Source of the DNA: Thermoflexus sp. | Lineage (GTDB): Bacteria > Chloroflexota > Anaerolineae > Aggregatilineales > Aggregatilineaceae | NCBI GenBank assembly: GCA_020724465.1 | Contig: DYGX01000002.1 | Location: forward strand, 62,001-126,000 | DNA: 64,000 nt | Direction of reading: 5' to 3' | Shown here: positions 18,546-21,023 of the stretch, one piece after another | How positions within the stretch are numbered: the first letter of the stretch is position 1 | Layout: every line of letters begins with the position of its first letter | Made by a program: the position numbers and the translations under genes | Notes under the pieces: generated by a model | Database searches by the model: none | Told to the model about the DNA's origin: nothing | Seen by the model: only the letters and a program-made list of their open reading frames with translations

Positions 18546-20078
18546 CTAACGATCGTTGCGCTCGCGCAAGTGCGGGAAGAGCAGCACCTCGCGGATGGTG
18601 CTCTTGTCCGTCATCAGCATCACCAGCCGGTCGACACCGATCCCGCAGCCGCCGCACGGGGGCATCCCGTAGCGCATGGCGCGCAGGTAGTCCTCGTCCA
18701 CCGGTGTAGCTTCGTCTTCTTCAGCTCCATACAGGCGGCCCATTTCCACAAAGCGCGCCTCTTGATCGAGCGGGTCGTTCAGCTCGGTGAAGGCATTGCC
18801 CATTTCCATCCCGCCGATGAAGACCTCGAACCGCTCCACATGGGATGCATCGCCCGGCACGCTCTTGGCGAAGGGTGAGATGTCTCGTGGATAGTCGAGG
18901 ATGAAGGTCGGCTGGATCAGGGTTGGCTCGACGGTATCACCCAGCAGCGTGTCGACCAGTTTGCCCCACGTGTACTTGGGCGGAGCCGCCAGCCCGGCAC
19001 GCTGCATCGCCGCGGCGAGGGTCTGGGCATCCGGATGCTCGGTGTAGTCGATGCCGGTGCGCTCGCGGATGGCGTCGCGCAGGGTGATGCGTGTCCACGG
19101 CGGTGTCAGGTCGATGGTATTCCCTTCGTAGTGGATGATTGTGCTACCCGTCACCTGTTCTGCGACAAACGCAATCATTCGCTCGGTGAGGTCCATCATC
19201 CCGTAGTAATCGGTATAAGCCTGATAGTACTCAAGCTGGGTGAACTCGGGGTTGTGCTTAAAGCTGACGCCTTCGTTGCGAAAATCGCGCCCGATCTCGT
19301 ACACCGCGTCGTACATGCCCACCAGCAGCCGCTTGAGGTACAGCTCGAAGCTGATGCGCAGGTACAGATCCTGGTGTAGTTGGTTGTGATGCGTGATGAA
19401 CGGGCGCGCAGCCGCCCCGCCGTAGATCGGCTGCAGGATCGGTGTCTCGACTTCGAGAAAGCCTTCCGCATCCAGGAACTGGCGCAGGGCGTTGATGGTT
19501 CGGGCCCGCGCGCGAAAAACTGCGCGCGTGTCCGGGTTAACCGCCAGATCGGCGTAGCGCTGCCGGTAGCGTTCCTCGACATCGCTGAACGCCCCATAGC
19601 GCTCGACCGTCCCGTCTTCGCGCACGCGCTCCTTGATCACCGGCAGGGGGCTAAGCGCCTTGGCGAGCACGGTCAGTTCGTCGACCAGGACGCTGATCTC
19701 GCCGGCACGGGTGCGCATCATCGTGCCCGACGCCTGGACAAAATCGCCCAGGTCCAGGTCCTGCCGGATCATCTCGTACGTGCTTTCGCCGACCTTGTCG
19801 ATGCGCACGAATAGTTGCAGGCGTCCCGCGCCGTCTTCGATATGCGCAAAGTAGACTTTGCCCTTGAGGTTCTGGCGCACGATTCGCCCGGTGACCGTGA
19901 CGGAGATCGGCTCCGGCTCGCTGGTCGCCTGGCGTTCGGCGGCTTCGAAGGCGCGCGCGGCTTCAACGGTGGTGTGCGTGCGCACGACCCGGTTGGGGTA
20001 GGGATCGATCTGGCGTCTGCGCAGGCTGTTGAGCTTGTCCAGCCGCTCCTGCTCCAGGTTATTGGATGGCGTCCACAT
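18546..20078 (-). CDS. lysS: Lysyl-tRNA synthetase, class II
   Basis: 510 residues from ATG 20078, the usual length. AGGA lies seven bases upstream; the frame could run up to 20183, but the extra 35 residues are not family-like. It charges tRNA-Lys. The N-terminal anticodon-binding OB fold (about 55-150) is followed by class II motifs: motif 2 FRNEGVSFKHNPEFTQLEYY and motif 3 GGCGIGVDRLVMLMTD. It is downstream of greA by 128 bases. Confidence 0.95.
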   Translation of the reverse strand: MWTPSNNLEQERLDKLNSLRRRQIDPYPNRVVRTHTTVEAARAFEAAERQATSEPEPISVTVTGRIVRQNLKGKVYFAHIEDGAGRLQLFVRIDKVGESTYEMIRQDLDLGDFVQASGTMMRTRAGEISVLVDELTVLAKALSPLPVIKERVREDGTVERYGAFSDVEERYRQRYADLAVNPDTRAVFRARARTINALRQFLDAEGFLEVETPILQPIYGGAAARPFITHHNQLHQDLYLRISFELYLKRLLVGMYDAVYEIGRDFRNEGVSFKHNPEFTQLEYYQAYTDYYGMMDLTERMIAFVAEQVTGSTIIHYEGNTIDLTPPWTRITLRDAIRERTGIDYTEHPDAQTLAAAMQRAGLAAPPKYTWGKLVDTLLGDTVEPTLIQPTFILDYPRDISPFAKSVPGDASHVERFEVFIGGMEMGNAFTELNDPLDQEARFVEMGRLYGAEEDEATPVDEDYLRAMRYGMPPCGGCGIGVDRLVMLMTDKSTIREVLLFPHLRERNDR

Positions 20079-20206
20079 CGCGAAATCCTGCTCTCCTCGC
20101 TGGGTAGGGGCCGGCCCGCCTTGTGGCAGCGGGCGGCGTTCAAAACAATGCCCACGCGAGCGGGTGCTGGCATGGGCAATCACAGACCGCCTGATGGAGT
20201 CTGATT

Positions 20207-20680
20207 TTACTCGATCGCAATGATCTTGAATTCGATCTCGCCATCCGGCGCTTCGACCACGACGCGATCGCCCACTTTGTGATCCATCAGCGCGCGGCCG
20301 AGCGGGCTTTTGAACGAGATCTTTCCGGCACGCGGGTTTGCTTCGGCAGCGCCGACCAGATGGTAGACTTCCGTCTCATCCGTGCCCACTTCCTGGACAG
20401 TAACGATGCTGCCCAGTGTGACGGTGTCGTTTTTCGCGTCTTGCTCGATGATCTGGGCGTTGCTCAGGATCATCTCCAGACGCATGATCTCGCCTTCGAT
20501 GAACGCCTGCTCGTTCTTGGCGTCCTCGTACTCGGCGTTCTCGACCAGTTCGCCCCCTTCTTCGAGGGCCAGGCGCAGGCGTTCGGCAACTTCCTGCCTG
20601 CGCACATTTCGCAGGTAGTTCAGCCGTTCTTCGTATTCTCGTAACCCCTCAAGTGTCAGATAATGAATGTCGTCACTCAT
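20207..20680 (-). CDS. greA: Transcription elongation factor GreA
   Basis: 157 residues. GreA enters the secondary channel of RNA polymerase and helps cleave back-tracked RNA. The N-terminal coiled coil (1-75) carries the acidic tip ELVENAEYEDAKNEQAF, and the C-terminal FKBP-like domain ends with KISFKSPLGRALMDHKVGD. GGAGGAGCGGG immediately precedes the ATG. It is likely the first gene of greA-lysS-kinase. Its upstream region contains the separate promoter-RNA-terminator unit at 20871-21023. Confidence 0.95.
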   Translation of the reverse strand: MSDDIHYLTLEGLREYEERLNYLRNVRRQEVAERLRLALEEGGELVENAEYEDAKNEQAFIEGEIMRLEMILSNAQIIEQDAKNDTVTLGSIVTVQEVGTDETEVYHLVGAAEANPRAGKISFKSPLGRALMDHKVGDRVVVEAPDGEIEFKIIAIE

Positions 20681-20870: not shown

Positions 20871-20898
20871 GTATAAAAACACAGCCTAAGCTGTGCTT
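20871..20898 (-). terminator. Rho-independent terminator of the small RNA
   Basis: Minus strand CACAGC-TTAG-GCTGTG, extendable to an eight- or nine-base stem with one G-U pair, followed by TTTTTAT. It could also end feo transcripts. Confidence 0.8.
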
Positions 20899-20988
20899 AC
20901 GCCATCTACGAGTACACCCAGAGCATCTGAGGGTAAAAAACAAGAGACCGCCAGCGCGGCGATCTAAGTCCCGTTCCGTCCGTAAGTG
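20871..20988 (-). ncRNA. Predicted structured small RNA or attenuating leader, unknown class
   Basis: A minus-strand transcript of about 118 bases is framed by a strong promoter (20995-21023) and an intrinsic terminator (20871-20898). Inside, CTTACG near the 5' end can pair with CGTAAG just before the terminator, enclosing a hairpin CGCC-GCGCT-GGCG and a second one around CAGA-TGC-TCTG. The AAG of the closing stem is shared with the base of the terminator stem, so the two may compete. No open frame with a ribosome site is seen. It could be a free small RNA, or a leader that attenuates greA, whose ATG is 190 bases further on. I do not recognise a known RNA family. Confidence 0.55.
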
Positions 20989-20994
20989 CCACCA

Positions 20995-21023
20995 ATTATA
21001 GCACAACGTTTCCCGCTTGTAAA
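20995..21023 (-). promoter_or_regulatory. Promoter of the small RNA
   Basis: Minus strand TTTACA (21018-21023), a 17-base spacer, then a perfect TATAAT (20995-21000). It is one of the best promoters in the window and lies 28 bases after the feoC stop, pointing away from feoC and towards the terminator at 20871. Confidence 0.75.

Follow-up and report, generated by a model that had tools for sequence, protein, structure and literature searches.

The stretch of Aggregatilineales DNA analyzed here (the window) is 64,000 nt long and contains, between feoC and greA, a compact promoter-hairpin unit on the minus strand. The features of the region are as follows.

20995..21023, minus strand: sigma-70-type promoter TTTACA-17-TATAAT of the greA leader, matching 11/12 consensus positions
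20871..20988, minus strand: predicted prematurely terminated greA leader RNA of ~118 nt, its start and end deduced from promoter and terminator positions and from colinear family homologues
20935..20965, minus strand: hairpin M1, AGATCGCC-GCGCT-GGCGGTCT followed by the interrupted U tract CTTGTTTTTT, its stem invariant in 12 family leaders
20916..20934, minus strand: linker hairpin ACCCTCAG...CTCTGGGT, predicted in the fold and specific to this genome
20875..20895, minus strand: hairpin M2, the intrinsic terminator CACAGC-TTAG-GCTGTG-TTTTT, conserved in families f1, f2, and f4
20207..20680, minus strand: greA, an open reading frame (ORF) for a transcription elongation (transcript-cleavage) factor and the gene presumably controlled; orthologues lie directly 3' of the element in relatives
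18546..20183, minus strand: lysS, the next gene, encoding lysine-tRNA ligase; the greA-lysS order is kept in relatives, lysS is probably co-transcribed with greA, and its true start is probably inside the listed ORF

Promoter and hairpins of the leader

The promoter has its -35 element (TTTACA) at positions 21023 to 21018 and its -10 element (TATAAT, preceded by TG) at 21000 to 20995, and it is the sole promoter-like site of such strength across 18 to 23 kb of the window. Transcription from it would start near position 20988. The original prediction described this promoter as pointing into ~118 nt that lack a good open frame and end at an intrinsic terminator, and all three points were borne out: the promoter lies as described, comparison of the 12 family leaders revealed no ORF common to them, and M2 occupies positions 20895 to 20875. 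M2 was not listed by our initial promoter/terminator scan but is plain in the sequence, in the fold, and in a later order-wide hairpin scan. The predicted fold of the leader RNA has an energy of -43.4 kcal/mol (z = -2.7 relative to dinucleotide shuffles), and only 2/200 shuffles were as stable.

Comparison of family leaders separated conserved from variable parts. The promoter and both hairpins, M1 (GATCGCC-loop-GGCGGTC plus CTTGTTTTTT) and M2 (CACAGC-loop-GCTGTG plus TTTTT), are conserved, and the stems GATCGCC/GGCGGTC and CACAGC/GCTGTG are invariant or nearly so in the 12 leaders. The 5' segment and the linker, in which the linker hairpin sits, are not conserved, and the linker varies several-fold in length. 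Relatives have a promoter of the CTTTACA-N17-TATgnTA type at the same place upstream of the hairpins. Because M1 and M2 each match only once in the 4.4-Mb genome, we rejected the idea that they are generic terminator sequences shared across the genome.

In family f1, the first hairpin begins ~19 nt past the predicted start, and the distance to M1 ranges from about 19 to 23 nt. M1 is probably a weak first terminator; since its U tract is interrupted, it may instead be a pause hairpin. The M1 hairpin of family f3 carries a full U tract and so would be a terminator. Across families, we found covariant pairs in M2 (A-U to C-G and C-G to G-C) and in M1 (G-C to A-U, together with the one-sided changes U-G to U-A and C-G to U-G). 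Such compensatory changes are few, and the stem sequences are more conserved than pairing or a plain terminator would need, so that a further role, such as protein binding or action in trans, is possible.

Association with greA across the order

A DNA search of 60 related genomes found both hairpins, colinear, in most of the family. In family contigs that reach greA, the element lies directly 5' of greA-lysS, while the upstream neighbor varies. The feo genes adjoin it only within this genome's own genus; thus, the element belongs to greA, and the feoC side, which the original prediction used to place it, is incidental. A link to feoC or iron was rejected. One genome of the same genus (G001) appeared to lack the element, but its contig begins 131 nt before greA, and this edge explains the apparent loss. 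Another genome (G004) has M1 without M2.

We then used a covariance model built on one family's leaders, without any part of greA, to search 154 genomes of the order. Matches were strong in this genome's own family and weaker in families f4, f2, f7, and f3, where they lay mostly directly 5' of greA. The original prediction had proposed a covariance search of homologues; among relatives, the M1 and M2 stems are conserved before greA, and the outer closing stem that it drew (see below) is not. M1 is found ahead of greA in other families, too, and shows covariant pairs there. A pattern for M2 gave 61 matches in the 154 genomes (a reversed-pattern control gave 0), and 56 of these were directly before greA. 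The other five are scattered (two inside coding sequence, one intergenic, one before a beta-lactamase-like gene, and one after an apparent glycine riboswitch), and an M2 regulon was therefore rejected. The last of the five (L271, G033:C84, at about position 300) is an M2-like hairpin upstream of a glycine-cleavage H-protein gene and is probably the riboswitch's own terminator.

Hairpins before greA were also sought without the use of the M1 and M2 motifs, by locating greA by protein search and scanning the regions upstream. Under strict terminator rules (at least 6 bp, score of at least 10, U-rich tail, within 300 nt upstream), a terminator hairpin preceded 97/105 greA orthologues, where dinucleotide shuffles lead one to expect 2.6 and the antisense strand gave 7; looser rules within 250 nt gave 99, compared with 16.6 (shuffles) and 17 (antisense). 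These counts are not independent trials, since the 105 leaders share ancestry and come from uneven sampling (the order has 61 genera, of which several are heavily represented). The finding that holds more firmly is that each of the eight families has a terminator hairpin before greA. Most of the 105 leaders also have the promoter upstream. Of the copies of a greA paralogue in the same genomes, only 1/20 had a strict hairpin.

The hairpins themselves differ among families. M1 is followed by M2 in f1 and f4, M2 stands in f2 (at times followed by another hairpin), f3 and f7 have M1-like hairpins, and f8 has others. Four genomes (G096, G097, G100, and G107; e.g., leaders L076 and L079) have M2 and then a second perfect terminator-like hairpin of the type GTGCTATT...AATAGCGC-TTTTTT just before the greA ribosome-binding site, a tandem arrangement in a different family. 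In G059:C187 (L252), an M1-like hairpin (TCAATCGCC-TGCT-GGCGGTTGA-TTTTTT) lies upstream of the genome's best GreA (51% identity), which was counted with the paralogues; because of this hairpin, it may be a true orthologue. Most of the ~30 genomes of genus g35 in family f2 (G117 to G149) have a single, more distant GreA (best E values of ~1e-31 to 1e-39), and there the greA orthologue with its leader seems to have been lost or replaced.

The spacing between the last hairpin and greA is often short. In many relatives, M2 or another terminator stands 22 to 60 nt before the greA start (in f2, the last hairpin is separated from the ATG by a median of 50 nt and a minimum of 22), and in G012, the U run of M2 is followed almost at once by the greA ribosome-binding site and ATG. 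In those genomes, greA must therefore be transcribed through the terminator. In the genome studied here, the gap is ~190 nt; we found no second promoter-like site between the terminator and greA in the window, and a weak or non-sigma-70 promoter inside the gap is possible.

Alternative explanations for the element

The original prediction recognized no riboswitch or housekeeping RNA, and this holds. The Rfam scan that it called for matched no known family at the element: at gathering scores, the only hits in the window were two tRNAs elsewhere, with no riboswitch or leader, and at E values up to 10 nothing credible appeared in the region, the best subthreshold hit being isrD (E = 3.1). The model of the enterobacterial greA leader GraL (RF01769) had no match in the region at E of ≤10 or in this genome and did not exceed its cutoff in any of 18 family genomes, while its positive control matched in E. 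coli. Identity with 6S RNA was rejected, since a separate 6S RNA is encoded elsewhere in the genome (G000:C33:33888-34062, RF00013 model). A leader-peptide attenuator was likewise rejected, as the 12 leaders share no ORF and the first hairpin begins ~20 nt into the predicted RNA.

An intergenic hairpin with a U tract is usually a 3' terminator, and M1 and M2 might by chance be ordinary terminators of the upstream gene, here feoC. We give this reading practically no weight, because a conserved promoter separates the hairpins from the upstream gene, that gene differs between relatives, and the M1 and M2 sequences are specific to greA. Another reading, offered by the original prediction alongside that of a greA leader, is a stand-alone small RNA; it would have a promoter and a terminator to itself and act in trans, and greA would be expressed from a separate downstream promoter. 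The clear promoter-to-terminator unit, the almost frozen hairpin sequences within the family, the ~190 nt that separate terminator and greA in this genome, and the fact that GraL itself also acts in trans (PMC6829880) would all suit such an RNA. However, the element is tied to greA throughout, and it lacks conservation beyond the hairpins, in the segments that should hold a pairing seed. As a main role, it is disfavored above all because the terminator stands so close to the greA ATG in many relatives, with no space for a promoter, and because no second promoter was found here; we regard it as improbable.

The original prediction also drew a fold closed by CTTACG/CGTAAG around two inner hairpins, from which a two-state attenuator or riboswitch could be imagined, the closing stem competing with the terminator. 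Both structures can indeed be drawn in this one sequence, and AAG is common to the closing stem and the terminator stem. Neither the closing stem nor the second inner hairpin, which lies in the nonconserved linker, is conserved, however, and the competing folds are not conserved in relatives. The 6-bp closing stem is perfect here only, has one mismatch in the same-genus relative, and is absent from the other 10 leaders, where the corresponding pairings are short and, with one marginal exception, no better than those of shuffles. The several-fold differences in linker length, and the occurrence of M2 in other families without an equivalent closing stem, also argue against a two-state switch, which we consider very improbable.

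Proposed attenuation of greA and relation to known leaders

The element very probably serves the greA(-lysS) transcript as a 5' leader and transcription attenuator. Of the two roles offered in the original prediction, synteny and the order-wide conservation of promoter and terminator hairpin strongly support the second, a leader that attenuates greA. The sequences themselves show how the parts are arranged, that they are conserved and tied to greA, and that several relatives have no space for a second promoter. That termination occurs and is partial, yielding a short leader RNA and a read-through greA mRNA, we infer from this lack of room. RNA polymerase would start at the strong promoter, meet M1 with its U-rich, interrupted tail ~20 nt into the RNA, and then reach the canonical intrinsic terminator M2. 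The greater part of the transcripts would stop as an RNA of ~118 nt (or ~55 nt, at M1), and greA mRNA would be made by read-through alone.

GreA is a rescue factor for stalled RNA polymerase, and other factors compete with it for the secondary channel of the enzyme; in E. coli, an unusual leader, GraL, sets the level of GreA. No conserved aptamer or antiterminator was found in the leaders compared; this, together with the very short RNA before M1 and the lack of a conserved ORF, speaks against a ribosome or a metabolite as the controlling agent. Read-through may rather depend on the state that RNA polymerase is in, and the most plausible input is GreA itself, which would give negative feedback. 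By analogy with GraL, we view such GreA-responsive feedback as a serious candidate, although we hold it tentatively. Rather unlikely, in our estimate, is a more specific scheme in which M1 and M2 are sequence-specific sensors of the RNA polymerase state, forming a two-stage GreA-responsive terminator that evolved apart from GraL; RNA polymerase carrying GreA or another factor would then read the nearly frozen stems, and the short RNA might also act in trans.

In E. coli, the GraL hairpin follows 19 nt of RNA, about two-thirds of transcripts end within the leader, and GreA reduces read-through by way of this leader, an effect that needs its cleavage activity and was seen only in vivo (PMC6829880). 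The element resembles GraL (RF01769) in having a promoter-proximal intrinsic terminator in the greA 5' untranslated region, very little RNA ahead of the hairpin (GraL has 19 nt, and the distance to M1 here is about 19 to 23 nt), and a short RNA and a greA mRNA that come (here, as predicted) from one promoter. The sequence of the hairpin matters in GraL and is conserved here. Unlike GraL, the element gives no covariance-model match, is unrelated in sequence, has two tandem hairpins in this genome's family, and belongs to a different phylum. Premature terminators before greA/rnk genes have been described in Proteobacteria, bacilli, and Clostridia; no common feature was found among greA- and rnk-leaders, and Chloroflexi are absent from the main text of that study (Naville and Gautheret 2010, PMC2965389). 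The greA-leaders of bacilli and the rnk-leaders also have a premature terminator upstream of a greA/rnk-family gene but were given antiterminator models (PMC2965389), none of which is conserved here. The rimP-leader (PMC2965389), too, is a leader attenuator, with a second tandem terminator in several Gammaproteobacteria, but its gene and sequences are different.

E. coli GraL and the leaders of bacilli thus already illustrate the principle, and what we describe is a clade-specific sequence family without an Rfam entry; we count it as new because RF01769 gave no match and Chloroflexi are absent from the main text cited above. Our literature search found no paper on greA leaders in Chloroflexota. 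A leader that very probably attenuates greA by premature termination is present through most of a chloroflexotal order, probably Aggregatilineales. Chloroflexota outside the order also have a promoter, hairpin, and U tract before greA, with other stem sequences; examples are TACCGCTG...CAGCGGTA-TTTCCC (L185, L187, L192, and L207) and CTGAGAG...CTCTCAG (L184 and L200), at the same place. These clade-specific hairpins suggest that greA attenuation is phylum-wide. The leader is a candidate family for Rfam, with a simple annotation rule, and its natural variants (M1 only, M2 only, or both) could be used to test what GreA feedback needs. That an unrelated leader with the same layout is conserved through an order of Chloroflexota suggests that premature termination before greA evolved repeatedly.
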